Source: Oscillospiraceae bacterium
GTDB taxonomy: Bacteria > Bacillota > Clostridia > Oscillospirales > Acutalibacteraceae
Length of the DNA: 64,000 nucleotides
Direction of reading: 5' to 3'
NCBI GenBank assembly: GCA_015065425.1
Contig: SVQH01000009.1
Location: 1 to 64,000 of the forward strand
How positions within the stretch are numbered: the first letter of the stretch is position 1; every line of letters begins with the position of its first letter. Both the position numbers and the translations under genes were made by a program. Shown in pieces: positions 1,763-60,994 of the stretch. The notes under the pieces were generated by a model that saw only the letters and a program-made list of their open reading frames with translations, ran no database searches and was not told where the DNA came from.

Positions 1763-1791
1763 TTGACTTGACAGCCGCTTTTTAGTATACT
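1763..1791 (+). promoter_or_regulatory. SigA-type promoter for the first T-box unit
   Basis: TTGACT (1763-1768), 17-bp spacer, TATACT (1786-1791). Transcription would start near 1798, at the 5' end of the T-box leader. Confidence 0.85.
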
Positions 1792-1797
1792 TCATTT

Positions 1798-2064
1798 AAT
1801 GAAAAATGCAGTGATGATATTAAGACTGTTTAAGGTAGCTTCAAGAGAGCCGTCGGCAGGTGTAAGACGGCAGTGAGATTTACAGTCTGTCTCGTATCGG
1901 AGCACGGTTTCTCAACACCTTCGGGCTTATAGGAAACTGCGGCAGGTCCCGTTATCATGACCGAGGACTTTTATGAGTCTTAAAGTGGCTGTATTACAGC
2001 AATACGGGTGGTACCGCGGTAGAATTTATCGTCCCTGAAACTATTGTTTCGGGGCTTTTATTTT
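1798..2064 (+). promoter_or_regulatory. T-box riboswitch, probably leucine (CUC specifier)
   Basis: Visible parts: the distal Stem I AG-bulge region (AGAGAGCC at about 1844), the T-box core GGTGGTACCGCGGT (2007-2020) and a terminator (stem 2033-2041 with 2046-2054, then a T-rich run). Stem I folds by eye with helix GACTGT/ACAGTC, a 7-base 3' loop TGTCTCG and lower helix GATA/TATC. By comparison with the glycine T-box Stem I fold this puts the specifier at CUC 1891-1893 (Leu). The 5' side of the loop lacks the usual AGUA, so the Leu call is tentative. Known mechanism: uncharged tRNA stabilises the antiterminator and turns on the genes downstream. Confidence 0.9.
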
Positions 2065-2081
2065 GTAAAAGGAGTATTGGT

Positions 2082-3485
2082 ATGAAAAAGATAAAAATTA
2101 CAGATAAGACATTGACAGGTATTTCAGGTGTTCTCAGCTTCAGAGAAAAAACAGAAATAGCAAAACAGCTTGATAAACTCGGTGCCGATGTAATTGAACT
2201 GCCGCAGATAAAAAGCGATAAGGCAGATATTATCCTTGTGAAAAACATTGCAGGTGTGGTTGAAAAAGCAGCATTGAGTATTCCTGCAGGTTTTACAAAA
2301 GAAACTGCAGATCTTGCTTTTTCCGCTGTAAAAGACGCAAAAATTCCTGTTCTCAATGTTGTTCTTCCAATGTCTCCTGCGGGTATGGAATATCACTGTG
2401 CGTTAAAGCCCGATAAAATGCTTTTGAAAATCAATGAAATGGTTGCATATTGTGTTTCACTTTGCGGTAATGTGGAATTTACGGCAGCTGATGCTACAAG
2501 AGCAGAAAAGGAATTTCTTGTAAAAGCACTCACTGAAGCTATCGGTGCAGGTGCAAAAAGTATTACTGTCTGTGATGATGCGGGGATTACAGACCCTGCA
2601 GAATTTGCCGATTTCATCACTTATATCAATGAAAATGTTCAGGGAATTGAAAATGTCAGTATTTCAGTGGATGTCTGTGATGCAATAAATATGTCAACAG
2701 CATGTATTGCTGCCGCACTCAGAAACAAAGCCGATGGAATTAAGACTACAGTAGGTTCTCGGGGATATGCAGATATAGAGAAAATAGCTGCATTCCTCAG
2801 TGTAAAGGGAGAGGTGCTCGGTGTTTCATCGGGTATAAAAACATCAACACTTAAAAATGTGTGTGATACCATTAATTCAATAGTTGAGTCTGACCGTACA
2901 AAACAGTCTCCTTATGACGGTGTTATAAGAAACGATGATGAAATAGAACTTCACAAAAATGATGACTTTGCGACAGTAGCTCAGGCTGTACGCAAAATAG
3001 GCTATGACCTCAATGCCGAGGACAGTGCAAAGGTGTATGAAGAATTCCGTAAGATTTCCGAAGAAAAGGAATATTTCGGAACAAAAGAGCTTGAAGCGAT
3101 AATTGCATCATCGGCACTTCAGGTTCCTTCCACTTATCATCTTGTAAGCTATGTAATAAATTCAGGTAATGTTATTACCGCTACTGCTAATCTTTGCATT
3201 GAAAAAGACGGTAAGAAGCTCAACGGAGTATATGTGGGCGACGGTCCCATTGATGCGGCTTTTCTTGCAATAGAGCAGGTGGTAGGTCATCACTTTGAAC
3301 TGGATGATTTCCAGATTCAGTCCGTAACAGAGGGCAGAGAAGCCATGGGACAGGCACTTGTGAAGCTTCGTTCCGATTCAGGTAAGCTTTATTCGGGCAG
3401 CGGTATTTCTACAGATGTTATCGGTGCCAGTATCAAGGCTTATCTCAATGCACTCAATAAAATTGCTTTCGAGGAGAACAGATAA
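2082..3485 (+). CDS. LeuA-like (2-isopropylmalate synthase family) protein lacking metal ligands
   Basis: 467 aa. The N-terminal ~300 residues align by eye with the HMGL-type TIM barrel of 2-isopropylmalate synthase (EIAKQLDKLGADVIE; VEFTAADATRAEKEF). The last ~110 residues are a well-kept LeuA regulatory domain (GVYVGDGPIDAAFLAIEQ; GSGISTDVIGASIKAYL). The catalytic motifs are gone: the TLRDGEQ segment reads TLTGIS with a short deletion, the HCHND metal motif reads DVCDA, and the NG.GERAGN region reads VGSRG. Canonical synthase activity is therefore doubtful; a leucine-sensing or new catalytic role is inference. Promoter and T-box precede it, and its stop overlaps the next start (TAATGA). Confidence 0.75.
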   Translation: MKKIKITDKTLTGISGVLSFREKTEIAKQLDKLGADVIELPQIKSDKADIILVKNIAGVVEKAALSIPAGFTKETADLAFSAVKDAKIPVLNVVLPMSPAGMEYHCALKPDKMLLKINEMVAYCVSLCGNVEFTAADATRAEKEFLVKALTEAIGAGAKSITVCDDAGITDPAEFADFITYINENVQGIENVSISVDVCDAINMSTACIAAALRNKADGIKTTVGSRGYADIEKIAAFLSVKGEVLGVSSGIKTSTLKNVCDTINSIVESDRTKQSPYDGVIRNDDEIELHKNDDFATVAQAVRKIGYDLNAEDSAKVYEEFRKISEEKEYFGTKELEAIIASSALQVPSTYHLVSYVINSGNVITATANLCIEKDGKKLNGVYVGDGPIDAAFLAIEQVVGHHFELDDFQIQSVTEGREAMGQALVKLRSDSGKLYSGSGISTDVIGASIKAYLNALNKIAFEENR

Positions 3486-5983
3486 TGAAACTCTCTTTCT
3501 CAACAAGATATATGCCTGATATGCCGTTATCGGGATATATAGCAACTGCACAGGCTCAGAAATTCAACGCAGTCGAAATTTATGATATATACAAAGACTG
3601 CTTCGGCGGTGAAAAGCCCTCCTTTTCAAAGGCAGGTGCTTTTTCCACAAAAAGAAAACTTCTCAATTCGGGAATTGCTGTTTCTCAGCTGGATTTTCCA
3701 TTTGATATATCGGATGAGAAAAGTTTTGAGGAAAATATAAAAAAGGCAGAAGAAATTATTTCCGCCGCTTCCGATATCAATGTACCTTATGTAAAGGCTT
3801 ATGCCGGTAAAAGTAAAGAAAAGGCAGAGGAGTTTCTCCTCAGAATAAAACCCGTTGCCGAGAATGAAAATGTCACCGTTCTTGTTGAAACTGACGGTGT
3901 TTACAGTGATTCTTCCGTGCTCCGCGATTTTCTTGAAGGCTTTGCCGGCGACTGTATCGGAGCACAGTGGAATATGTATCATACGTTTTTTGAAGCTGAG
4001 GAAGATGCAGAAAACACCGTAAAAAATCTCGGTGCTTACATAAAATCCGTAAAGATAAATGATGCAGACAGTGACGGAAAGCCTGTTCTTATAGGTGAAG
4101 GTAAGCTTCCCGTCGGGGAAATGATAAATGCCCTTCGTTCCATAAATTTTGCAGGTTATGTGTGTCTTGAATGGAATCTTGACTGGCTTCCCGAAATTGA
4201 TGATTTTGATATAATCCTTACTTTCTTTGAGTCCCGTATGAATGTGTACGGAAATCCGAAAAAGAACAAGAAGCATTTTTACCGTAATAAGACAGGTGAC
4301 GGTAAGTTTATATGGAAAAAGGAACAGCTTATCGACAAGACCTTTTCTCAGGTGCTTGATGCTCAGTGTGAGGCATTTCCCGACCAGTTGGCGTTCAAGT
4401 ATACAACACTTGATTATACAAGGACCTACAGAGAATTCCGTGACGATGTTGACAGCTTTGCAAGAAGTCTTATTGCTCTCGGTGTGCGTCCCGGAACCCA
4501 TGTGGCTGTATGGGCAACAAATATCCCTCAGTGGTATATATCCTTCTGGGCAGCAGCCAAAATCGGAGCTGTTCTTGTTACCGTAAATACTGCGTATAAG
4601 ATACATGAAGCAGAATATCTTTTCAGACAGTCAGATACTCATACTCTTATTATGGTAGATTCTTACCGTGATTCCAATTATGCCGAAATCGTAAAGGAGC
4701 TGTGTCCCGAGCTTAAAAATAAGCGTCAGGGAGAGCCGCTTTATGCAAAAAGACTGCCGTTTCTGAGAAATGTCATTACCTGCGGTTTTTCAATGGATGG
4801 ATGTATGACATGGGAAGAAGCTGTTGAAAAAGGAAAAACCGTTCCCGTGGAGGAAGTTTACAGGTATGCTTCTCAGGTGGACAAGGACGATGTATGCAAT
4901 ATGCAGTATACATCGGGTACAACGGGCTTCCCCAAAGGTGTTATGCTTACCCACCACAATGTTGTAAATAACGGTAAGTGCATCGGTGACAGAATGGATC
5001 TTTCCACTGCGGACCGTATGATGATACAAGTGCCCATGTTCCACTGCTTCGGTATGGTACTTGCAATGACAGCTTCAATGACTCACGGGGCAACTCTTAT
5101 GCCCCTCCCTTATTTCTCTCCGAAGCCTGCACTTGCATGCATCAACAATGAAAAAATCACCGCCTTTCACGGAGTGCCTACTATGTTTATTGCACTCCTC
5201 GGACATGACGATTTCCCGAAAACGGATTTCTCTCACATGAGAACGGGAATTATGGCAGGTTCCCCCTGTCCCATAAGTGTTATGCAGGATGTCGTAGAAA
5301 AGATGAACATGAAAGAGATAACCATTGTTTACGGACAGACAGAGGCTTCCCCCGGCTGTACCATGAGCAGTACGGATGATCCCATTGAAGTAAGAGTTTC
5401 TACCGTCGGCAGAGCACTTCCCGAAATAGAGTGTAAAATAGTCGACCCCGAAACGGGAGAGGAATGTCCCGATGAAGTAACAGGTGAATTTGTGGCAAGA
5501 GGATATAACATAATGAAGGGCTATTATAAGATGCCCAAGGCTACTGCCTCAGCCATTGATAAAGACGGTTGGCTTCACACGGGAGACCTTGCCTGCAGAA
5601 CACCTGAGGGTAATTTCAGAATTACCGGCAGACTCAAGGATATGATAATTCGCGGCGGTGAAAACATTTATCCAAAAGAAATCGAAGAATTTATTTATAC
5701 TCATCCCAAGGTATCCGACGTTCAGGTCATAGGTGTTCCCGATGAAGCAATGGGTGAGGAAATAATGGCGTGTGTTATTCTTAAAGAGGGAGAGGAAATG
5801 ACTGTTCAGGAGATGAAGCAGTATGTTCTTGAACACATGGCAAAGCACAAGGTGCCGAAGTATATAGACTTTGTCACCGAGTTCCCAATGAATGCCGCAG
5901 GTAAGATACTTAAGTATAAAATGCGTGAGGATGCCATTAAAAAACTCGGTCTTCAGAAGGCAGATTCCATAGAAACCGCATAA
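3485..5983 (+). CDS. fusion: xylose-isomerase-like TIM barrel + AMP-forming acyl-CoA synthetase
   Basis: 832 aa in one uninterrupted frame. Residues 1 to about 245 resemble the sugar-phosphate isomerase/epimerase (AP-endonuclease-2-like) TIM barrel (FNAVEIYDIY; VLVETDGVY; GYVCLEWNLDW). From about 285 to 820 it is an acyl-CoA synthetase: P-loop YTSGTTGFPKG at 475-485, GQTE motif, HTGDLA, GRLKDMIIRGGENIYPKEIEE and the C-terminal Lys region NAAGKILKYKMRE. The synthetase half resembles medium/short-chain fatty-acyl-CoA ligases and would adenylate a carboxylic acid and transfer it to CoA. I know of no standard enzyme with this domain order. Overlaps the LeuA-like gene by 1 base, so the two are translationally coupled under the same T-box. 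Confidence 0.85.
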   Translation: MKLSFSTRYMPDMPLSGYIATAQAQKFNAVEIYDIYKDCFGGEKPSFSKAGAFSTKRKLLNSGIAVSQLDFPFDISDEKSFEENIKKAEEIISAASDINVPYVKAYAGKSKEKAEEFLLRIKPVAENENVTVLVETDGVYSDSSVLRDFLEGFAGDCIGAQWNMYHTFFEAEEDAENTVKNLGAYIKSVKINDADSDGKPVLIGEGKLPVGEMINALRSINFAGYVCLEWNLDWLPEIDDFDIILTFFESRMNVYGNPKKNKKHFYRNKTGDGKFIWKKEQLIDKTFSQVLDAQCEAFPDQLAFKYTTLDYTRTYREFRDDVDSFARSLIALGVRPGTHVAVWATNIPQWYISFWAAAKIGAVLVTVNTAYKIHEAEYLFRQSDTHTLIMVDSYRDSNYAEIVKELCPELKNKRQGEPLYAKRLPFLRNVITCGFSMDGCMTWEEAVEKGKTVPVEEVYRYASQVDKDDVCNMQYTSGTTGFPKGVMLTHHNVVNNGKCIGDRMDLSTADRMMIQVPMFHCFGMVLAMTASMTHGATLMPLPYFSPKPALACINNEKITAFHGVPTMFIALLGHDDFPKTDFSHMRTGIMAGSPCPISVMQDVVEKMNMKEITIVYGQTEASPGCTMSSTDDPIEVRVSTVGRALPEIECKIVDPETGEECPDEVTGEFVARGYNIMKGYYKMPKATASAIDKDGWLHTGDLACRTPEGNFRITGRLKDMIIRGGENIYPKEIEEFIYTHPKVSDVQVIGVPDEAMGEEIMACVILKEGEEMTVQEMKQYVLEHMAKHKVPKYIDFVTEFPMNAAGKILKYKMREDAIKKLGLQKADSIETA

Positions 5984-6019
5984 TTAAAAAAATTAATCGG
6001 TTTTATTAGTTTTGTGATG

Positions 6020-6048
6020 TTGACAAATATATTTACTTGTGATATCAT
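6020..6048 (+). promoter_or_regulatory. SigA-type promoter for the second T-box unit
   Basis: TTGACA (6020-6025), 17-bp spacer, TATCAT (6043-6048). The leader RNA would begin near 6055. Confidence 0.85.
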
Positions 6049-6054
6049 TCACTC

Positions 6055-6320
6055 AATGGCTGTGACGAAGAGGCCTGAAAGTTGTCTGATACAGAGAAGC
6101 GGCGGTTGGTGAAAGCCGTAAGAGGATGCTTTCAACAGGTTATCACTTCTGAGCCGGAAATGCGAAATCACAGTAGTGTTTCCCGAAAGTGCTGCGTTAG
6201 TGCAAAGGAGTTGTCGGACTCCCCGAGTGGCTGATGGCGATAGCCTAAGCAATTTGAGTGGTACCGCGGAATAATATTTCCGTCTCAAAGAAATTTTTCT
6301 TTGAGGCGGTTTTTGTATTT
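6055..6320 (+). promoter_or_regulatory. T-box riboswitch, probably isoleucine (AUC specifier)
   Basis: Contains the T-box core GAGTGGTACCGCGGA (6256-6270) and a strong terminator: 12-bp stem 6280-6291 with 6298-6309, then TTTTT. Stem I folds by eye with GGCT/AGCC at the base, a kink-turn-like GTGAC/TGA, lower helix GAAG (6067-6070)/CTTC (6146-6149), upper helix CCTG (6074-6077)/CAGG (6136-6139) and a 3' loop TTATCA. The triplet before the loop purine is AUC (6142-6144), an isoleucine codon. The UGGU bulge matches a tRNA with discriminator A, as tRNA-Ile has. Downstream: AAGGAGG and the start at 6338. Confidence 0.92.
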
Positions 6321-6337
6321 TTAAGGAGGTTTTACTT

Positions 6338-8608
6338 ATGCCGAAAAACAACACGGACAATAAACTTTATGAGGTTGCACGCCGAATACAGGAAATGCGT
6401 TCCATTTGCGACTTTACTATTGAAGAAATGGCAGAAAAAACCGAAGTTACCCCTGAACAGTATATGGCTTTTGAAGGCGGAACTGAGGATCTTCCGTTTT
6501 CGTTCATTCATAAATGTGCCCTTGCTTTTGATATAGGAATCACTGACCTGCTTGAAGGTCACAGTGCAAAGCTTACTTCCTATACCGTTACAAGAAAAGG
6601 CGAAGGACAGACAACAGCCAAAGAAAACGGTATTGAAATCCAGAACCTTGCTCCTCTTTTTAAGGATAAACTCGGTGACCCTTACTGGGTAAGATACGAA
6701 TATTCAGCCGAGCTTGAAAATAAACCTGTGCATACAACAACACACGCAGGTCAGGAATTTGATATGGTCATAAGCGGTACTCTTATGGTCAAGGTAGGTG
6801 ACCATACGGAAATACTTCATGAGGGTGACAGTATCTATTATAAGAGCTCAACTCCTCACGGTATGATAGCCGTTGACGGAAGAGACTGCGTGTTCCTTGC
6901 CTTCATTCTTGCATCAGATGAAGCCCCTGAAGATATTGTAAAGCACAGAGTTCTTCCCGATACAAGAGTAAGCGAATCGCTCGTTTGCCACAAGTTTGTA
7001 AAAACTGTTGAAAATGATCGCGGTGAGCTTGTAAGCATAGATTTTGAAAATACAGATGAATTCAATTTTGCTTTTGACGTTGTCGATAAAATTGCAAAAA
7101 AATCCCCCGACAAAACTGCAATGATACATATTGCAAGGGATATGACCGAAAGAGTATTCACTTATCAGCAGATAAAAGAGTATTCTTGTCAGACAGCCAA
7201 TTATTTCCGTTCTCTCGGAATCAAAAAAGGCGACAGGGTAATGCTTGTATTAAAGCGTCATTATCAGTTCTGGTTCTCCATTCTTGCCCTTCACAGACTC
7301 GGTGCTATAGTTATCCCTGCAACGCATCAGCTTCAGGCACATGATTTTGAATACCGTTTCAATGCGGCAGGTGTAAGTGCCATTGTGTGTACTTCCGATG
7401 ACAATACTCCCTCACATGTTGATGAATGTGCAGATAAATGTCCTTCTCTTGTAACAAAGGTTGTTGTAGGAGAAGACAGAGACGGTTGGCACAATTTCGA
7501 TAAGGAATACAGTCTTTTTTCACGCCGTTTCAGAAGAGAAGATGATACAGCCTGCGGAAAAGATCCCATGCTTATGTTCTTCACTTCGGGTACTACGGGT
7601 TATCCCAAAATTGCAACACACAGTTTTGATTATCCTCTTGCCCATTTTGTTACTGCAAAATACTGGCATACGGTCAATAAAGACGGTCTTCACTTTACGA
7701 TTTCTGATACAGGCTGGGGTAAAGCACTCTGGGGTAAGCTGTACGGTCAGTGGCTTTGCGAAGGCTCGGTATTTGTATATGACTTTGACAGATTTGATGC
7801 TTCTGTTATACTTCCCATGTTTACGAAATACAAAATATCTACCTTCTGTGCTCCTCCCACAATGTACAGAATGCTTATCAAACAGGACCTTTCAAAATAT
7901 GACCTGTCATCCATCCGTCATGCAACCATTGCAGGTGAAGCACTCAACCCCGAAGTATTCAAGCAGTTTGAGGCTGCAACGGGACTTCAGCTTATGGAAG
8001 GCTTCGGTCAGACGGAGACCACACTTACGATAGCAAATCTTGTGGGAACAACGCCCAAGCCCGGCTCAATGGGTAAGGCAAACCCCATGTACGATATAGA
8101 TATACTAAGAGCCGACGGGACCTCTGCACAGCTCGGTGAAAACGGTGAAATTGTTGTGCGTACTTCAGAAAAAGTTCCCTGCGGACTTTTCCTCGGTTAT
8201 TACAATCAGCAGGAAAAAACAGACGAAGTATGGCACGACGGTTATTATCATACGGGTGACCTTGCATGGAAAGATGAAGACGGTCACTTCTGGTATGTCG
8301 GCAGAGTTGATGATGTTATTAAGTCATCAGGCTACCGTATAGGACCTTTTGAAATTGAAAATGTTATCATGGAGCTTCCTTATGTTCTTGAATGCGGCGT
8401 TTCAGCCGAACCTGATGAACTCAGAGGTCAGGTTGTAAAGGCAAGCATTGTCCTTACAAAAGGCACTGAGCCTACAGAGGAACTCAAAAAAGAAATTCAG
8501 AAGTATGTCAAAGAACATACAGCTCCCTATAAGTATCCGAGAATCGTTGTATTCAGAGATTCGCTTCCAAAGACTATAAGCGGAAAGATACAGAGAAATA
8601 AACTTTAA
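6338..8608 (+). CDS. fusion: XRE-type HTH + cupin + AMP-forming acyl-CoA synthetase
   Basis: 756 aa. Residues 5-75 are a helix-turn-helix of the XRE type (RRIQEMRSICDFTIEEMAE). Residues about 115-190 are a cupin_2 barrel (THAGQEFDMVISG; GDSIYYKSSTPHG). This pair is normally a small sugar- or acid-sensing repressor. From about 225 on is a complete acyl-CoA synthetase with TSGTTGYPK at 416-424, GFGQTE, YHTGDLAW, GRVDDVIKSSGYRIGPFEIE and the catalytic Lys region SGKIQR. The enzyme half resembles acetyl/medium-chain acyl-CoA synthetases. Start at 6338 follows AAGGAGG directly behind the T-box terminator. A regulator-enzyme fusion could couple acid activation with DNA binding, but that is inference. 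Confidence 0.88.
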   Translation: MPKNNTDNKLYEVARRIQEMRSICDFTIEEMAEKTEVTPEQYMAFEGGTEDLPFSFIHKCALAFDIGITDLLEGHSAKLTSYTVTRKGEGQTTAKENGIEIQNLAPLFKDKLGDPYWVRYEYSAELENKPVHTTTHAGQEFDMVISGTLMVKVGDHTEILHEGDSIYYKSSTPHGMIAVDGRDCVFLAFILASDEAPEDIVKHRVLPDTRVSESLVCHKFVKTVENDRGELVSIDFENTDEFNFAFDVVDKIAKKSPDKTAMIHIARDMTERVFTYQQIKEYSCQTANYFRSLGIKKGDRVMLVLKRHYQFWFSILALHRLGAIVIPATHQLQAHDFEYRFNAAGVSAIVCTSDDNTPSHVDECADKCPSLVTKVVVGEDRDGWHNFDKEYSLFSRRFRREDDTACGKDPMLMFFTSGTTGYPKIATHSFDYPLAHFVTAKYWHTVNKDGLHFTISDTGWGKALWGKLYGQWLCEGSVFVYDFDRFDASVILPMFTKYKISTFCAPPTMYRMLIKQDLSKYDLSSIRHATIAGEALNPEVFKQFEAATGLQLMEGFGQTETTLTIANLVGTTPKPGSMGKANPMYDIDILRADGTSAQLGENGEIVVRTSEKVPCGLFLGYYNQQEKTDEVWHDGYYHTGDLAWKDEDGHFWYVGRVDDVIKSSGYRIGPFEIENVIMELPYVLECGVSAEPDELRGQVVKASIVLTKGTEPTEELKKEIQKYVKEHTAPYKYPRIVVFRDSLPKTISGKIQRNKL

Positions 8609-8612
8609 TAAT

Positions 8613-9269
8613 ATGAAAAGAGTAATTATTATAGCAGGGCATTACGGCTCGGGAAAAACCAATATTGCCGTAAATATGGCTCTTGCAATGAAAAAAGACG
8701 GAATAAACACGGTTATTGCAGATCTTGATATTGTAAATCCGTATTTCAGAACGAAGGATTCCCTTGAAAGACTTACCGAAGCGGGGATAAAACTCATTTC
8801 ATCGGAATACGCAAATTCCAATGTTGACATTCCCGCAATTCCACAGGATATGTATTCTATAGTAGATGATAAGGAAAATCACTATATAGTCGACCTCGGC
8901 GGAGATGACAGGGGGGCTTATGCACTGGGACGGTATGCGGATAAACTCAAAGAGGAAAATGATTACGAAATGTATTTTGTTTTCAATATGTACAGACCTC
9001 TTACTCCCGATGCTGAAAGTGCACTTGATGTAATGCGTGAAATTGAAGAAGCATGCCGGATGAAATTTACTGCAATAATAAATAATTCCAACATAGGTGA
9101 GCTTACAGATGTTCAGGCAGTATTGACCTCCGTGGCAGAATGTGATAAACTTTCATTGTCAGCGGATATCCCTGTCGCTTTCACTTGTGTAAGTACGGAT
9201 GTGTACGAAAAAATGACAGGATATGAGGGAAAGCTCTTTTCGCTGGAACTTCAGAAGAAAATCATTTGA
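8613..9269 (+). CDS. P-loop NTPase (ParA/CobQ-like) of the 2-oxoacid oxidoreductase operon
   Basis: 218 aa starting MKRVIIIAGHYGSGKTN: a Walker A motif near residue 10 (GHYGSGKT), followed by a DLD segment near 43-45 and a VDLGGDDRG Walker B/switch region near 93. The layout fits the SIMIBI class of nucleotide-binding proteins (ParA, CobQ, nitrogenase-iron-protein relatives). The specific substrate is unknown. It lies 4 bases after the acyl-CoA synthetase gene and its end overlaps the short alternative start of the ferredoxin gene, so it belongs to the operon. An assembly, cofactor-insertion or regulatory role for the oxidoreductase is inference. Confidence 0.75.
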   Translation: MKRVIIIAGHYGSGKTNIAVNMALAMKKDGINTVIADLDIVNPYFRTKDSLERLTEAGIKLISSEYANSNVDIPAIPQDMYSIVDDKENHYIVDLGGDDRGAYALGRYADKLKEENDYEMYFVFNMYRPLTPDAESALDVMREIEEACRMKFTAIINNSNIGELTDVQAVLTSVAECDKLSLSADIPVAFTCVSTDVYEKMTGYEGKLFSLELQKKII

Positions 9270-9283
9270 TTGGAGAGAATATA

Positions 9284-9490
9284 ATGGCAAAAGTTACTTT
9301 TTCGGAAGACCTTTGCAAAGGCTGCGGACTTTGTGTCGGTGCTTGTCCTAAAGGTATTGTAAAACTGGCTGAAACACGCCTTAATGTAAAAGGACACCAT
9401 CCTGCTGAAATTACAGATCAGGATTCATGTATTGCCTGTGCATTCTGTGCAACAATGTGTCCCGACTGTGTAATTACTGTAGAGAGGTGA
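9284..9490 (+). CDS. 2-oxoacid:ferredoxin oxidoreductase, delta (ferredoxin) subunit
   Basis: 68 aa with two 4Fe-4S motifs, CKGCGLCVGACP and CIACAFCATMCP. It carries electrons between ferredoxin and the TPP-containing core of the enzyme (VorD/KorD type). The start MAKVTFSED at 9284 is chosen because GGAGAG lies 7 bases upstream; an in-frame ATG at 9266 has no such site. First of four consecutive subunits in the order delta, alpha, beta, gamma, which is the usual VOR/KOR operon order. Confidence 0.92.
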   Translation: MAKVTFSEDLCKGCGLCVGACPKGIVKLAETRLNVKGHHPAEITDQDSCIACAFCATMCPDCVITVER

Positions 9491-9495
9491 AGAAA

Positions 9496-10557
9496 ATGAG
9501 CGATATGGTTTTAATGAAAGGAAACGAAGCTATTGCAGAAGCTGCCATTAAAGCAGGTTGCCGCCATTACTTCGGTTATCCCATTACTCCTCAGACTGAG
9601 GTTGCAGCATATATGTCAAAGAGAATGCCCAAAATAGGCGGTACGTTCCTTCAGGCTGAAAGTGAAGTTGCTGCAATAAATATGGTTATAGGTGTTGCAT
9701 CCACCGGTAAAAGAGTTATGACCTCTTCCTCATCCCCCGGAATTTCACTTAAGAGTGAAGGTATTTCATATCTTGCCGGCTGTGACCTTCCCGCACTTGT
9801 TGTAAATGTTCAGAGAGGCGGTCCCGGTCTCGGCGGTATCCAGCCCTCCCAGTCTGACTATTGGCAGGCTGTCAAGGGCGGAAGCCACGGTGACTTCCAT
9901 AACATTGTTCTTGCCCCCGCATCCGTTCAGGAAATGGCAAGTCTTACTGTCAAAGGCTTTGAACTTGCCGATAAATACAGAATGGTATCAATGATTTTAG
10001 CTGACGGTACAATGGGACAGATGATGGAACCCGTTTCGCTTGATATTGAAAGCACCTTTACTGTTGAAAAACCGTGGGCAGTAACAGGCACTAAGGGCGA
10101 AAGAAAGCATAATATTGTAAATTCTCTTTTCTTACAGCCTGAAGAACTCGAACAGAAGAACTTTGAAAGATTTGAAAGATATAACCTCATTGAAGCTACA
10201 GAGGCTATGTATGAGGAATACCTTATGGAAGATGCCGAAATCTGTGTAGTTGCTTTCGGTATCACTTCAAGAGTTGCTAAAAATGCAATAAACGAAGCAA
10301 GAAAACAGGGGGTAAAAGTAGGTCTCATACGTCCCATTACTCTCTGGCCCTTCCCCAAAGCAGTGCTGAATAAGGCTGCCGATAAGTGTAAGGCATTTAT
10401 TTCCGTTGAAATGAATATGGGACAGATGATAGAGGATATTGAACTTTCAATAAGATGTAAAAGAGAAGTTCACCTGTGCTGCCGTACAGGCGGTATGATT
10501 CCGTCACCTGAGCAAGTTCTTGCAAAAATTATTGAAGTAAGCGAAAAGGAGGACTGA
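9496..10557 (+). CDS. 2-oxoacid:ferredoxin oxidoreductase, alpha subunit
   Basis: 353 aa from ATG 9496, preceded by AGAGAGGTGAAG. N-terminal pyrimidine-binding region ([43 protein letters not shown]) and the core [27 protein letters not shown] typical of VorB/KorA. With the beta subunit it forms the thiamine-diphosphate active site and binds the 2-oxoacid. In the forward direction the enzyme makes acyl-CoA and CO2 from a 2-oxoacid; with reduced ferredoxin it can carboxylate acyl-CoA. Substrate (branched 2-oxoacid, 2-oxoglutarate) cannot be fixed from sequence; the Ile T-box upstream favours the branched-chain type. Confidence 0.92.
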
Positions 10558-10561
10558 GAGT

Positions 10562-11317
10562 ATGGCTACAGTTTTTAAGAAACCCGATTCATTAACAGAT
10601 GCAGTTCTGCACTATTGTCCCGGCTGTACTCACGGTATTATTCACCGTCTCGTTGCCGAAGTAATAGATGAACTGGGCATTGAAGGAAAGACCATAGGCG
10701 TTGCTCCCGTCGGTTGTTCCGTTATGGCATATAATTATTTTACCTGTGACTTTGTTCAGGCGGCTCACGGCAGAGCCCCCGCAGTTGCAACGGGTGTAAA
10801 ACGCTCTGACCCCGATAATATCGTATTTACATATCAGGGTGACGGTGACCTTGCCGCAATAGGTACTGCCGAAACAGTACATGCTGCCGCAAGAAGAGAA
10901 AATATCACTGTTATTTTCGTAAACAATGCAATTTACGGTATGACAGGCGGTCAGATGGCTCCTACAACTCTCCCCGGACAGGTTACTCAGACTTCTCCCT
11001 ACGGCAGAGATGTAAATACGGTAGGTTATCCCGTAAAGGTCTGCGAGCTGCTTCAGAATGTTGACGGTGCCGCTTACCTTGAAAGAGTTGCTGTTAATAA
11101 TGTCAAAAATATCAGAAATGCAAAAAAAGCAATCAAAAAGGCTTTTCAGAATCAGATAGACGGAAAAGGCTTCTCCCTTGTTGAGGTGCTTTCCACTTGT
11201 CCCACAAACTGGGGTATGTCTCCCGAAAAGGCACTCTCCTGGCTTGAAGATAATATGATTCCTTACTATCCTTTAGGTGTTTATAAGGATATAACATCAG
11301 AAAAGGAGGCAGAATGA
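10562..11317 (+). CDS. 2-oxoacid:ferredoxin oxidoreductase, beta (TPP-binding) subunit
   Basis: 251 aa. The thiamine-diphosphate motif is visible as [11 protein letters not shown] followed by [16 protein letters not shown], and the N-terminal CPGCTHG motif matches VorA/KorB beta subunits. GGAGG lies 9 bases before the ATG. Its TGA overlaps the start of the gamma gene (ATGA), indicating coupled translation of equal subunit amounts. It supplies the cofactor site for oxidative decarboxylation or the reverse carboxylation reaction. Confidence 0.93.
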
Positions 11318-11850
11318 TGGCTACTGTTAATATGCTTTTTGCAGGCTTCGGCGGTCAGGGTATCCTTTTTGCAGGTAAATTCCTTGCATACAAAGGTCTT
11401 ATTGAGGGAAAACAAGTAAGTTGGCTTCCTTCCTACGGTCCCGAAATGAGAGGCGGTACTGCCAACTGTTCCGTCATTTTAAGTGATTCTCCCATAGGCT
11501 CTCCCATAGTAGATAAACCTGATGTGCTTATTGCCATGAATCTTCCTTCTCTTGATAAGTATGAGGATGCCGTAGTCCCCGGCGGTAAGATTTTCGTTGA
11601 CTCAACTCTTATTTCAAGGAAAGTAAACAGAACCGATGTTGAGGTTTTCTATATCCCCGCATCAGGCCTTGCAAACGAAAAGAACATAAAGACTCTTGCA
11701 AATATGATAATTACAGGTAAGGTTATTAAAGAAGTTGCCGAAATCGGTGCGGATAACCTTGAACCTGCTCTTAATAAGGTCATTTCCGCAAGACATCAGG
11801 ATATGCTGAAATTTAATCTTGATGCACTTACACTCGGAGCTGAGCTGTAA
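11314..11850 (+). CDS. 2-oxoacid:ferredoxin oxidoreductase, gamma subunit
   Basis: 178 aa with the family signature [15 protein letters not shown] near the N-terminus and [19 protein letters not shown] in the middle, which mark the CoA-binding gamma domain of this enzyme family. It overlaps the beta gene by 4 bases. Two adjacent ATG codons (11314, 11317) are possible starts. Last gene of the Ile T-box operon; a terminator follows about 55 bases later. Confidence 0.93.
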
Positions 11851-13765: not shown

Positions 13766-14815
13766 ATGAAAAAATCTCTGTATGTATTGCTGACATGTAT
13801 AATCTTGGCTTTTACTCTTGGCATTTTTGCTTCTGCAACCGAGACAGAGACTCCCGATACAACTGACGGCTGTCTGCTCGGTGATGTGGATTTTGACGGT
13901 AAGATTACCTCTGCCGATGCACGTCTTATATTAAGATACTCTGTTTCACTTGAAGACCTTTCAGACCTTGCCATTGCTTATTCAAATATTGACATGGATG
14001 AAACAGTTTCATCTGCCGATGCAAGACTTGCACTCAGAACTTCGGTTAATCTTGAAAGCAAAAACACACATGACTACGAAATAACCGCATATACTGCTGC
14101 AAGTTGTACGCTTGAAGGCTCCCTTAAGGCAAAATGCAAGGATTGTGCTGCTGAAATTTCTATGGTTACAAACAAAACAGGACATACACTTGAGAAAGAG
14201 GCTCCCTGTGACACTGTTGCTATATGCAGTGTATGTGCAACAAAAGTCAATGTTGCTGCAGAACATAATTACAGTTCTTCGGGACTTTGTACATTTTGCG
14301 GTGCTGTAAGTAAAGCTCAGGCTTTTGAGGCTTTGAAAGAAGTTGTACGTTCAAACGGAACAAATCAGGAAAATGTTCTTGTTTACGGTGAAGACCTCGG
14401 CGAATATTATGTTGCACTTTGTTATTTTGCACAGGATGACTATATGTATCTGTACACAGGCTTCGGTGTTATAAGTGAAGATGAGTACGGTGTTGAACAC
14501 TACGGTGAATATTATAATTATCTTGATCTTGAGAAAACATTTACTTCTTATGAATCTTCAATGGCACTTGTTGTTGACGGAATAACGAGTATATACATAG
14601 AAGGATATATCGATAGTACAAAGGCAAATCACGATGCTCCCGGCTCTTTTACGCTGACACATTATGAAGCATTGGAAGGAATACCTGACACCAGTGCAGA
14701 TGTTTCTTATATCAGTGAAGGTATGTCTTTAGATGCAATAGACTGGCTTATAGATATTTGTAAAAAGCATGATATTCCTCTTACTGCAGATTTGTTGGGT
14801 TTTGTGAATTTTTAA
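13766..14815 (+). CDS. secreted dockerin-containing protein with Cys-rich middle region
   Basis: 349 aa. Signal peptide MKKSLYVLL... cleaved near SATE (about residue 24-27). Residues 34-92 are a type I dockerin with two calcium-loop repeats (GDVDFDGKITSADARLILR; NIDMDETVSSADARLALR). Residues about 100-180 hold four CxxC pairs of the kind seen in Clostridia surface proteins. The C-terminal 165 residues are rich in acidic and aromatic residues and match no family I recognise. The dockerin implies attachment to a cohesin on a scaffold or the cell surface; an N-terminal position for a dockerin is less common. Start follows GAGAGGATGAAAATGTA. Confidence 0.8.
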   Translation: MKKSLYVLLTCIILAFTLGIFASATETETPDTTDGCLLGDVDFDGKITSADARLILRYSVSLEDLSDLAIAYSNIDMDETVSSADARLALRTSVNLESKNTHDYEITAYTAASCTLEGSLKAKCKDCAAEISMVTNKTGHTLEKEAPCDTVAICSVCATKVNVAAEHNYSSSGLCTFCGAVSKAQAFEALKEVVRSNGTNQENVLVYGEDLGEYYVALCYFAQDDYMYLYTGFGVISEDEYGVEHYGEYYNYLDLEKTFTSYESSMALVVDGITSIYIEGYIDSTKANHDAPGSFTLTHYEALEGIPDTSADVSYISEGMSLDAIDWLIDICKKHDIPLTADLLGFVNF

Positions 14816-58640: not shown

Positions 58641-58783
58641 GAAAAACAAAAAATAAAAAAAGGTCAGTAATTTTTTTACTGATTTTATTCGGAGTAATTA
58701 AAAAACTCAATAATACAAGGATCAATGTACCTCTGCCTTAAGTGGGCGAGGATGTTATTATTTATTTGATGGGAAGAGAAAAA

Positions 58784-60994
58784 ATGAAAAGAATAACGGC
58801 AGTTTTTATGTTCCTTGTGCTGATGCTCTGTGTTTTTCCCGTGTTCTCCTTTGCAGCCTCACCCGAAATAATTGTCGGAAGTGCTGAAGGTTATGCGGGT
58901 GAAACTGTAGTTGTTGATATAAAGATGCAGGGAAATCCGGGGATTGTTGCTATGTATCTTGATATAAGATATGACAGCAGATTGAATCTTGAATCTGTAA
59001 AAGATATGAAAATTCTCAACGGAAAACTTTTTTCAGAACAGATTTCTTCGGTTCCCATGGTGCTTTCATGGGATGATTCTCTTGCAAGAACAGACAACAC
59101 CGGCAACGGCACATTGGCACAGCTGATTTTCAGAATACCTCAGGGTACACCTGCAGGTACTTATGATATCAATATTTCTTATGATAAAGAGGAAATATAT
59201 AACAGAAATCTTGAAAATGTAGATTTTGCTGTAGTAAACGGAAAAATAAAAGTAAAGTCCAATAAGGTATTTGAAGACAGTGAAAAAGTTTTCCGTTCGG
59301 GAGATTATCTGTATTTTGCAGAAGATACAAAAGTTTCGGACATTCTTGATTATTCCCGCACAGGAACTCTTGTGAAAAACGGAGAGAAGAGCATGAAGGA
59401 GTCACAGCTTCTTTGCAGCGGAAATACTGTGTATTTTACGGATAAAAGCGTTTATACCTGTATTCTTAAGGGAGATGTGGATTCTGACGGAGATATTTCA
59501 TCTTCGGATGCAAGACTTACTTTACGAAACAGTGTGGGGCTTGAAATATTTAATGCTTGGCAGCTGAAAGCAGGCGATGTTGACACTGCATCCGGAATCA
59601 GCTCATCTGATGCACGTCTGATTTTAAGGGCTTCTGTAAATCTTGAAAATTCTGACAGTTGGCTTCCTTTAATTGAAAAGGCAGCAATAGACTCTTCAGG
59701 TGATTTTGCAGTTATAAATAAGGATATAGTCACAGATGAAGAGGATTATTATGCTGCCGGAGATTATATTATTTCGCAGTTGAAAGAGTTTGAGACAACG
59801 GTGGATATTTCGGCTTATAATGTCAGCAAAGATGACGCGGTGATGCTTCTCAAAGAGTTTATCAATGTCGTTCCTGAGCTGTTTTATGTCGAAACTATGG
59901 TTGATGTTTATTCAAGAGACAATGTTATAGAATATCTTGAATTCAGGCTTAAGAAGAATGCAAGGAAAAATGTAAAAGATTATAATGAAAGACTTGCGGA
60001 AATTGCCTCTCTCGCCGAAGAAGACTGGAGCGATGTAAGAAAAGTGTTGTTTTTCCATGATTATCTCTGTAGTCAGTATTCTTATGATGAATCTTTGTCC
60101 CTGTTTGATGCCTATTCAATGATGACGAAAAAAACAGGTGTCTGTCAGGCGTATGCACTTTTGTTCAAGGCCTTGCTTGAATATCACGGAATACCGTCAA
60201 TATATGTATCCAGCGAAAAAATGAATCACGGATGGAACATTGTAAAAATAGGTTCCTCATGGTATCATGTTGATGTCACATTTGATGACCCTCAGCATGA
60301 CAGATATGGTATGGCACTTCATGAAAATCTGCTTTTAAGTGATAAGGCAATAGCCGAAAACGGTCATAAGGACTGGTTTTGTCTCGGTGAAAAAAAGCAG
60401 TGCACAAGCAGTTTTTATGATAATTATTTCTGGAAGGATATAACAAGTCCTTTTGCAGTAATTGACGGAAGATGGTTTTATATCGATGAATATGAATCAG
60501 ATTACGCTATATATGAATGGATAGAAAATGAACACCGTGTTCCCGTAAAAACACTGTTTGCCGTATCCTCATGGAAAGGATTTCTGGGGATTCCCATAAG
60601 CGGTTTTCATTCAGGTTTCGCAGTACTTGACAACGCTCTTATATATAATACCCCCGATACGGTTTTGTCTTATGACCCGTTTTCAGGTAAACAGAAAATT
60701 CTGTATAAAGAGGATGTCTCGGAACAGATATTCGGAATAACCGTAAGTGACGGTGTATATGTCAATATAAGCAGTTCTCCCGATTCAACAAAACGCAATA
60801 TTATTGCGATAGATTTTATGAATACGGGCGACTGTGACGGAAGCGGTTATATAAACGCCAAGGACTATACACTCTTGTTGAGATATGTTAACGGATATAA
60901 TGTAACTGTTGACGAAAGTGCCGCAGACATAAACAAAGACGGCAAAAAGAACAAGGAAGATTCCTCTTTGCTGAGATTTTTAATTGTAAATTGA
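58784..60994 (+). CDS. secreted cohesin-dockerin-transglutaminase-dockerin protein
   Basis: 736 aa from ATG 58784 (MKRITAVFMF), since a signal peptide begins there; in-frame ATGs at 58742 and 58769 are alternatives. Domains: cohesin-like beta sandwich about 27-165 (GYAGETVVVDIKM; LDIRYDSRLNLESV); dockerin-like pair about 235-295 (GDVDSDGDISSSDARLTLR; GDVDTASGISSSDARLILR); transglutaminase-like core about 410-510 with Cys in KTGVCQAYALLFKALLEYHG, His in NHGWNIV and Asp in YHVDVTFDDP; C-terminal second dockerin about 680-736. A multi-domain cell-surface or cellulosome-like component; the transglutaminase fold could act as a peptidase or crosslinker. Confidence 0.85.
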   Translation: MKRITAVFMFLVLMLCVFPVFSFAASPEIIVGSAEGYAGETVVVDIKMQGNPGIVAMYLDIRYDSRLNLESVKDMKILNGKLFSEQISSVPMVLSWDDSLARTDNTGNGTLAQLIFRIPQGTPAGTYDINISYDKEEIYNRNLENVDFAVVNGKIKVKSNKVFEDSEKVFRSGDYLYFAEDTKVSDILDYSRTGTLVKNGEKSMKESQLLCSGNTVYFTDKSVYTCILKGDVDSDGDISSSDARLTLRNSVGLEIFNAWQLKAGDVDTASGISSSDARLILRASVNLENSDSWLPLIEKAAIDSSGDFAVINKDIVTDEEDYYAAGDYIISQLKEFETTVDISAYNVSKDDAVMLLKEFINVVPELFYVETMVDVYSRDNVIEYLEFRLKKNARKNVKDYNERLAEIASLAEEDWSDVRKVLFFHDYLCSQYSYDESLSLFDAYSMMTKKTGVCQAYALLFKALLEYHGIPSIYVSSEKMNHGWNIVKIGSSWYHVDVTFDDPQHDRYGMALHENLLLSDKAIAENGHKDWFCLGEKKQCTSSFYDNYFWKDITSPFAVIDGRWFYIDEYESDYAIYEWIENEHRVPVKTLFAVSSWKGFLGIPISGFHSGFAVLDNALIYNTPDTVLSYDPFSGKQKILYKEDVSEQIFGITVSDGVYVNISSSPDSTKRNIIAIDFMNTGDCDGSGYINAKDYTLLLRYVNGYNVTVDESAADINKDGKKNKEDSSLLRFLIVN

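Follow-up and report, generated by a model that had tools for sequence, protein, structure and literature searches.

The 64-kb stretch of DNA from an Oscillospiraceae bacterium that we analysed (the window) carries two back-to-back T-box units, each consisting of a promoter-like site, a leader, a terminator and genes, and it is very probable that these are the leucine and isoleucine units of a T-box regulon making branched-chain amino acids (BCAA) from fermentation acids. The presence of the two units and of their genes is confirmed. Gut and rumen bacteria that apparently lack the normal Ile/Val/Leu pathway would thus probably rebuild the amino acid from fermentation waste. According to the scheme that we propose, uncharged tRNA-Leu or tRNA-Ile would cause readthrough of the respective leader and the ligase would be made, which would convert isovalerate or 2-methylbutyrate into its CoA ester; in relatives, a paralogue under a Val T-box would do the same with isobutyrate. 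Reductive carboxylation of the CoA ester to the 2-oxo acid would then be carried out, with ferredoxin, by the VOR-type oxidoreductase encoded in the Ile unit, one VOR possibly serving several branches, and an enzyme encoded elsewhere would aminate the product. As the preliminary description had pointed out, an aminotransferase is missing from the set: no amination gene was found among its genes.

It has been known since the 1960s that branched short-chain acids are growth factors for rumen bacteria. In rumen anaerobes, Leu is made from isovalerate, Ile from 2-methylbutyrate, Val from isobutyrate and Phe from phenylacetate, according to the available part of PMC7356843, and the reductive carboxylation described by Allison and others involves the same acid-to-amino-acid pairs as those proposed here. 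However, the accounts of rumen anaerobes, as far as their text was available, mention neither a ligase dedicated to each amino acid nor control by tRNA sensing nor a genetic unit in Clostridia. In none of the literature matches listed are these ligases or the route itself connected with T-boxes, which is no proof of novelty, most subscription papers lying outside the scope of the search. The biochemistry is long known, and the regulated gene set itself was not found in the literature searched.

All features lie on the forward strand. Unit 1 begins with a sigma-70-like promoter (TTGACT-17-TATACT, 1763..1791), followed by leader 1 (1802..2039) with the specifier CUC (Leu) at 1891-1893 and an intrinsic terminator (2033..2054; -16.5 kcal/mol, z -5.0). 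The same arrangement is found in unit 2: promoter TTGACA-17-TATCAT at 6020..6048, leader 2 at 6053..6290 with the specifier AUC (Ile) at 6142-6144, and a terminator at 6280..6309 (-19.7 kcal/mol, z -6.4). Both promoters are consensus matches only, and the number of promoter-like matches across the region is not above that in shuffled sequence. Both terminators overlap the ends of the antiterminators, and because of this overlap the two structures presumably compete.

Two complete T-box leaders had been proposed earlier, and the Rfam model RF00230 matches both. Leader 1 scores 98.9 bits (gathering score 93; E 1.5e-20 over the window), whereas leader 2, at 83.9 bits, stays under the gathering score, with an E value of 8.4e-19 in 501 bases and of 1.1e-18 in the whole-genome scan. 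A covariance model of Stem I gave no matches in the window other than leaders 1 and 2, both of which are among its training rows. The specifier position was taken from the glyQS-type loop rule, which we assume to apply here; the base 3' of the specifier is G after CUC in leader 1 and A after AUC in leader 2. These readings agree with the earlier assignment of leader 2 to Ile and, tentatively, of leader 1 to Leu. Applied to the nine other T-boxes of the genome, whose genes were named from reading their translations, the rule yields a specifier that agrees with the downstream gene in eight; the ninth, outside the window, has a Phe specifier upstream of a PaaK-like gene. Judged from their sequences, both leaders are T-boxes, and they are predicted to bind uncharged tRNA.

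The specifiers were then surveyed in relatives. Since regular-expression parsing of T-boxes is noisy (35 of 198 parses gave some other triplet, and 13 genes had no parse at all), the Stem I covariance model, with its structure assigned by hand, was used in its place. It was trained on parses that scored high and showed any of five BCAA triplets, plus the two window leaders; therefore 25 of the 167 matches, from 88 sources, are training rows chosen for BCAA specifiers. Altogether 165/167 leaders stand upstream of the genes considered here. Leaders of LeuA2, the first gene of unit 1, read Leu in 33/33 cases, and those of ACS2, the first gene of unit 2, read Ile or Val in 132/132 (80 Ile and 52 Val, one Val after a 1-nt shift). 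Specifiers for unrelated amino acids, which would have spoken against the proposed route, did not appear, as all 165 read Ile, Val or Leu. No leader match was obtained for 12/136 ACS2 and 4/34 leuA2 genes having enough upstream sequence. The gene order is also kept: ACS2, ATPase, delta and alpha follow each other in 60/60 relative loci (of 80) that show alpha on the strand of the ligase.

The specifier of ACS2 leaders varies together with the ligase itself. ACS2 (6338..8608) is a fusion of HTH and cupin domains with an acyl-CoA ligase. In a tree of 128 ACS2 fusions (4 of the 132 labelled proteins were too short and were left out), the Ile/Val distinction is a single change with a support of 100. 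Only 1 of 517 ligase-domain positions differs between the Ile and Val classes at 90% conservation in each: residue 461 is Gly in 80/80 Ile-type ligases, including that of the window, and Ala in 48/48 Val-type ones. Specifier and residue 461 also agree in 21/21 held-out genes. When the held-out rows are added, both the specifier and residue 461 change twice, and no row breaks the pairing; earlier trees had given one Ile/Val change. For four genomes with a Val/Ala ligase, the second copy was predicted to combine AUC with Gly, and 4/4 predictions were correct. Position 461, at the acyl pocket, follows an invariant Trp, and in fungal Acs the side chains of the WIT motif at the matching place surround the aliphatic tail.

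In the genome of the window, completeness of which is 95%, a genome-wide family search for ilvB, ilvC, ilvD, canonical leuA, leuB and Aminotran_4 (IlvE-type) found none of them; the absences of leuA and leuB rest on weaker models, since these pass the cut-offs in only 9/14 control genomes. Because these genes were not found, the set seems to replace the ilv/leu pathway in its own genome, so that of the two roles suggested earlier, replacing or backing up this pathway, the former seems to apply. Among the genomes compared, ilvC is missing in 24/25 genomes with two fusions (in two of these, one copy is cut short) and is still present in 19/81 fusion-bearing genomes. Simple auxotrophy for BCAA, with peptides as their source and the units acting on other acids, would be compatible with the missing ilv/leu genes taken alone, the ligase substrates being predicted ones. 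However, across 165 leaders, with two switches, the specifier goes with the ligase group and the pocket residue, and this argues against plain auxotrophy, which we regard as extremely unlikely and have rejected. The specifiers, the missing ilv/leu genes and the pairing of ligase group with residue 461 all support the original suggestion of a regulated gene set leading from the acids to BCAA. A Val unit was not found in this genome; at the place where a near relative has one, the stretch is contiguous without it. Ile, Val and Leu units occur together in Erysipelotrichaceae bacterium NK3D112, probably a cultured organism, as its record carries no MAG label.

The nearest solved relative of ACS2 is 3ETC (MacsMa of Methanosarcina acetivorans), for which we know of no T-box control. 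The match (640 bits) covers the ligase domain only, leaving the HTH-cupin module outside, and the 3ETC residue corresponding to Gly461 is likewise Gly. MacsMa prefers 2-methylbutyrate, as stated in the accessible part of PMC10455477, and MbcS uses 2-methylbutyrate and isobutyrate but isovalerate poorly, according to what was available of PMC10026030. MbcS (NF047394) is the best NCBIfam family for ACS2, yet the score of 429.2 bits is below the cut-off of 850; ACS2 is therefore not a member of this family, although by inference it works like one, and in the window it would be a 2-methylbutyrate ligase. The ligases might instead make branched acyl-CoA primers for branched-chain fatty acids of the membrane, with the T-boxes merely mirroring BCAA status, all the more so as MbcS of Staphylococcus aureus serves this very purpose. 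However, this hardly accounts for an oxidoreductase in the same unit as ACS2, for a leader amino acid that tracks the pocket residue of the ligase, for a genome in which the family search recovered none of the de novo BCAA genes sought, or for a PaaK-like ligase behind a Phe T-box, phenylacetate being, to our knowledge, no usual fatty-acid primer. On these grounds primer supply was rejected as quite improbable.

The remaining genes of unit 2 encode a CbiA/ParA-like P-loop ATPase (8613..9269) and the delta (9284..9490, two 4Fe-4S clusters; searched as 9281-9490, with ATG at 9284), alpha (9496..10557), TPP-binding beta (10562..11317) and gamma (11314..11850) subunits of a 2-oxoacid:ferredoxin oxidoreductase. 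The two AMP-forming ligases and the four-subunit oxidoreductase reported earlier behind the leaders were thus recovered by family searches. The alpha subunit scores 540.3 bits against the subfamily model PRK07119 (VorB; cut-off 399) and, with beta, gamma and delta adjoining, is assigned to it; a second oxidoreductase of the same genome is also above this cut-off (435 bits). The VOR-type enzyme of the window would act on branched 2-oxo acids. It resembles known VOR and other 2-oxoacid:ferredoxin oxidoreductases in its four subunits and differs from them in lying downstream of an acid ligase within a T-box unit. The VOR reaction can run in both directions and its oxidative use is known, and so the set might break BCAA down, oxidising 2-oxo acids to acyl-CoA and excreting the acids for energy. 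However, AMP-forming ligases run towards acyl-CoA, and the family search found no other BCAA route in the genome. Moreover, T-box genes are induced by uncharged tRNA, as described in the available part of PMC7778990. Breakdown is therefore very unlikely, and it was rejected in favour of synthesis.

Unit 1 encodes LeuA2 (2082..3485), a 2-isopropylmalate-synthase-like protein, and ACS1 (3485..5983), in which a xylose-isomerase-like TIM barrel is fused to an AMP-forming acyl-CoA ligase. The RDGEQ and HxH motifs presumably hold the metal and catalytic residues of LeuA. One or more of the Asp and the two His residues remain in 1/38 LeuA2 proteins and all four metal ligands in 0/38, so that a working LeuA function was rejected. 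By contrast, the LeuA_dimer regulatory domain is present (PF08502, E 4.1e-30), and pairwise identity is 65% in this domain versus 40% in the catalytic part. LeuA2 thus seems to be an enzyme with only the sensor domain retained. In PDB searches, no match was found for the TIM domain of ACS1 at E 0.001 or for ACS1 at 1e-80. We infer that ACS1 is an isovalerate ligase. Leader 1 shares its kind and Leu specificity with the T-boxes of the Bacillus subtilis ilv-leu operon, where the specifier is also CUC (title of reference B14 in PMC2494555), and of Geobacter leuA (PMC2700814, available part). However, what those leaders regulate is a functional LeuA or de novo synthesis, whereas leader 1 controls a LeuA without catalytic residues and an acid ligase.

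It is tempting to speculate, though we can hold this only as a tentative possibility, that in many gut Clostridia de novo synthesis of BCAA, and perhaps of Phe, has been replaced by such an acid-rebuilding regulon, with one ligase and a matching T-box for each amino acid, a Gly/Ala switch choosing between the Ile and Val acids, and a second layer of feedback provided by modules that sense amino acids or acyl groups and accompany the ligases: for Leu a catalytically dead LeuA serving as leucine sensor, for Ile as well as Val the HTH-cupin module, and for Phe an ACT-like protein adjacent to PaaK. Candidate genes can now be offered for the route from acids to BCAA and for its control. Specifier and residue 461 together would constitute a readable code for the acid taken by each ligase and would predict which gut bacteria depend on acids that others release, a concrete cross-feeding rule relevant to the isoacid feeding of ruminants. 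LeuA2, in turn, offers an example of an enzyme seemingly reduced to its sensor domain. The preliminary description had overlooked this LeuA-like first gene, the additional domains that each of the two ligases carries as a fusion, and the P-loop ATPase.

Both T-box leaders that the preliminary description had placed in the window proved to be real. Leader 1 (1802-2039) scores 98.9 bits against a gathering threshold of 93, and leader 2 (6053-6290), at 83.9 bits, is under that threshold, although its E-value is 8.4e-19 when 501 bases are searched and 1.1e-18 genome-wide. In each, an intrinsic terminator (2033-2054 and 6280-6309) overlaps the end of the antiterminator and a sigma-70-like site (1763-1791 and 6020-6048) lies just 5' of the leader. 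Since promoter-like matches across the region do not exceed those in shuffles (33 vs 27.5, sd 5.4), both promoters are plausible only. The specifiers, CUC (Leu) in leader 1 and AUC (Ile) in leader 2, are the triplets proposed earlier, tentatively in the case of Leu. We read them by a rule that we take from the glyQS leader. Applied to nine other T-boxes of the source genome, it fits the downstream gene in eight: Phe, Tyr, Asn, Ile, Thr, Trp, Met and Ala specifiers precede genes read as pheS, tyrS, asnS, ileS, thrS, trpB, metS and alaS, respectively. The ninth specifies Phe ahead of a PaaK-like ligase.

Unit 1 begins with a LeuA-like protein having HMGL-like and LeuA_dimer domains (LeuA2), followed by ACS1, a xylose-isomerase-like TIM barrel joined to an AMP-forming ligase. 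Unit 2 opens with ACS2, in which HTH and cupin domains are joined to an AMP-forming ligase, and continues with a P-loop ATPase and the delta, alpha, beta and gamma subunits of a 2-oxoacid:ferredoxin oxidoreductase, whose alpha subunit exceeds the VorB-type cut-off. The two ligases and the four-subunit oxidoreductase had been described correctly, but the LeuA-like gene had been overlooked. The best NCBIfam match of ACS2 is MbcS (429 of 850 bits), and the closest solved structure to its ligase domain is 3ETC (640 bits) from Methanosarcina acetivorans, an enzyme whose preferred acid is 2-methylbutyrate (PMC10455477). MbcS of S. aureus accepts 2-methylbutyrate and isobutyrate and is poor with isovalerate (PMC10026030, in part), which a separate ligase for Leu would fit.

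The ACS2 scan of genome contigs gave at least 596 candidates, of which the best 80 became named loci; many of their titles refer to the rumen, caecum, colon, rectum or faeces of ruminants and horse. The window also encodes proteins with dockerin-like repeats, read from the translation (13766-14815 and 58742-60994), fitting for a fibre-degrading gut bacterium. Conservation of gene order, suggested earlier as a check, was borne out: ACS2, ATPase, delta and alpha follow one another in 60 of the 60 loci (of 80) showing alpha on the ligase strand. LeuA2 is present in 36 of all 80, and many loci stop short. A Stem I model made from 25 leaders, with the specifier taken at a fixed offset and paired with the next gene, found 167 leaders across 88 sources. 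ACS2 fusions are preceded by AUC (80), GUA (48) and GUC (3, plus 1 upon a 1-nt shift), and LeuA2 by CUC (22), CUG (10) and CUU (1); two leaders have neither gene behind them, one being a CUC near a contig end and the other lying ahead of PaaK. Rfam's own model agrees for nine leaders in three loci, each locus having one Leu, one Ile and one Val. All three kinds are present in 21 of the 77 loci with matches. Three of the 80 loci lack any leader match, and with at least 400 nt upstream the leader was not matched for 12 of 136 ACS2 and 4 of 34 LeuA2 genes in these loci. The pattern points to a distinct ligase for each of Leu, Ile and Val, each under its own T-box specifier, with isovalerate, 2-methylbutyrate and isobutyrate as the predicted substrates.

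Specifier and ligase go together. The tree of 128 leader-labelled ACS2 fusions (80 Ile, 48 Val) has a single change of label, with support of 100. At 90% conservation per class, the two classes differ at 10 of the 205 HTH-cupin positions, against just 1 of the 517 in the ligase domain. This sole ligase position, residue 461, is Gly in 80/80 Ile ligases and Ala in 48/48 Val ligases and directly follows a Trp invariant in ACS2 rows. By our own alignment it is the middle of the WIT motif, whose side chains encircle the aliphatic tail in fungal acetyl-CoA synthetase (PMC8383264, in the part available). 3ETC carries Gly here, and the direction fits, the bigger side chain going with the smaller acid. 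Held-out loci (L012-L041) contributed 33 leaders; apart from six genes cut short ahead of residue 461 and six duplicates of labelled proteins, all 21 usable genes agree (16 Ile/Gly, 5 Val/Ala) and none disagrees. With 14 held-out rows added (142 labelled rows), the tree has two changes for the specifier and two for the residue; because the dividing branch has support of 92, this tree may still reflect a single origin. On a 29-row tree, built under a better model from the window, held-out rows and 10 randomly drawn rows each of Ile and Val type, two changes are unavoidable and fall on well-supported branches; there, Val/Ala ligases from genus mates (three rows, plus a near-identical fourth) join the Ile clade at 99. 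Before reading them, we predicted that the other copies in these four genomes would be Ile/Gly, and AUC with Gly was found in 4/4; a third copy in one genome has Gly and no leader match in its stretch.

The source genome, 95% complete at 2.79 Mb in 59 contigs, was searched for ilvB, ilvC, ilvD, leuA, leuB and Aminotran_4, the family of IlvE. There are no family matches to ilvC, ilvD or Aminotran_4. The best ilvB match (180.8 of 538 bits), under the cut-off, adjoins genes read as inositol genes. The best leuB match (154.9 of 353 bits), also under the cut-off, is probably isocitrate dehydrogenase, since similar scores recur across relatives, and the only two matches to canonical LeuA are pieces of LeuA2. 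In control genomes ilvB, ilvC and ilvD exceed the cut-off in 14/14 and Aminotran_4 in 13; the leuA and leuB models pass in just 9/14, with sub-cut-off matches in the remainder, so that these two absences are less firm. Among the source genome and 58 relatives, ilvC exceeds the cut-off in 16/59 (2/26 within the genus): in 4/33 with a full-length fusion vs 12/26 without, the latter including five less complete genomes with fusions cut short (Fisher p 0.007, ignoring kinship). Across 247 genomes of the order, each at least 90% complete, ilvC, whose presence in relatives the preliminary description had proposed to check, is likewise rarer with the fusion: 19/81 with a listed fusion (one incomplete) vs 121/166 without (p 2e-13, again ignoring kinship), where the lists were copied by hand and that of the fusions is a lower bound. 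Of 25 two-fusion genomes, two having one copy cut short, 24 lack ilvC. Seven genomes (G002, G009, G012, G015, G020, G022, G024) have ilvD over the cut-off and not ilvC.

LeuA2, found at 2082-3485 of the window and in 37 relatives, has lost catalytic residues and kept LeuA_dimer well. Any of the Asp and two His that we take to be metal-binding residues of LeuA is kept in 1 of 38 distinct proteins, and all four ligands in none. Pairwise identity is 65% in LeuA_dimer vs 40% in the catalytic domain, opposite to four canonical LeuA of relatives (52% vs 67%). A functional LeuA would presumably stand idle without LeuB. We propose for LeuA2 the role of a regulator that binds leucine and acts on the Leu branch. 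Its leader may have arrived with the gene, since a true leuA is under a Leu T-box in Geobacter (PMC2700814, in part).

The underlying chemistry is known. Rumen microbes form Leu from isovalerate, Ile from 2-methylbutyrate, Val from isobutyrate and Phe from phenylacetate (PMC7356843, in the part available), in accord with the earlier claim, and M. ruminantium makes Ile from 2-methylbutyrate (PMC2812497, likewise in part). T-boxes on branched-chain amino acid synthesis genes are known too (part of PMC2494555). The main texts of two T-box surveys (PMC2494555, PMC3766115) contain 'ferredoxin', 'oxidoreductase' and 'acyl-CoA' zero times each, and among the matches listed in our literature search, of limited coverage, T-boxes joined with the acid-to-amino-acid route were not found. 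The units thus appear to be a fresh combination of known control and known chemistry, with substrates that we infer from sequence, and reading them as a regulon yields a strong, easily tested prediction.

The PHENYLALANINE branch has a set of its own on another contig of the source genome (L122:5391-7424): a Phe T-box (UUC), a PaaK-like phenylacetate-CoA ligase gene (532.7 of 646.3 bits for TIGR02155) and a small protein read as ACT-like, without an NCBIfam match at E 1e-20. This set is the aromatic counterpart of the window units. Most class-specific residues of ACS2 sit in the cupin module, and one idea is that every ligase is accompanied by a sensor: LeuA2, the cupin module of ACS2 or the ACT-like protein near PaaK. 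Elsewhere the source genome has an indolepyruvate-type oxidoreductase (732 bits, above the cut-off), whose subunits share one cluster (L136:29-5158) with a ligase and an aminotransferase of class I/II. It also carries a gene resembling amino-acid dehydrogenases (best NCBIfam ScyB, 360.5 of 600 bits), 97% identical to one that a relative (G006) has some 1.5 kb from its Val ligase. This aminotransferase and the ScyB-like gene are candidates for the amination step. Immediately 3' of ACS2 in two loci (L124:8578-9357, L147:2807-3583) is a gene read as carbon-nitrogen-hydrolase-like; that it might perform amination with a glutamine-transaminase-like aminotransferase is an idea only. A second VorB-type oxidoreductase of the source genome (L137:4195-6567) has no ligase among the adjoining ORFs read. 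Finally, a Trp T-box (UGG) of the source genome precedes trpB (L123:4865-6085), with no other trp genes read among neighbouring ORFs of at least 120 aa; such a lone trpB may mean that Trp is made from indole.
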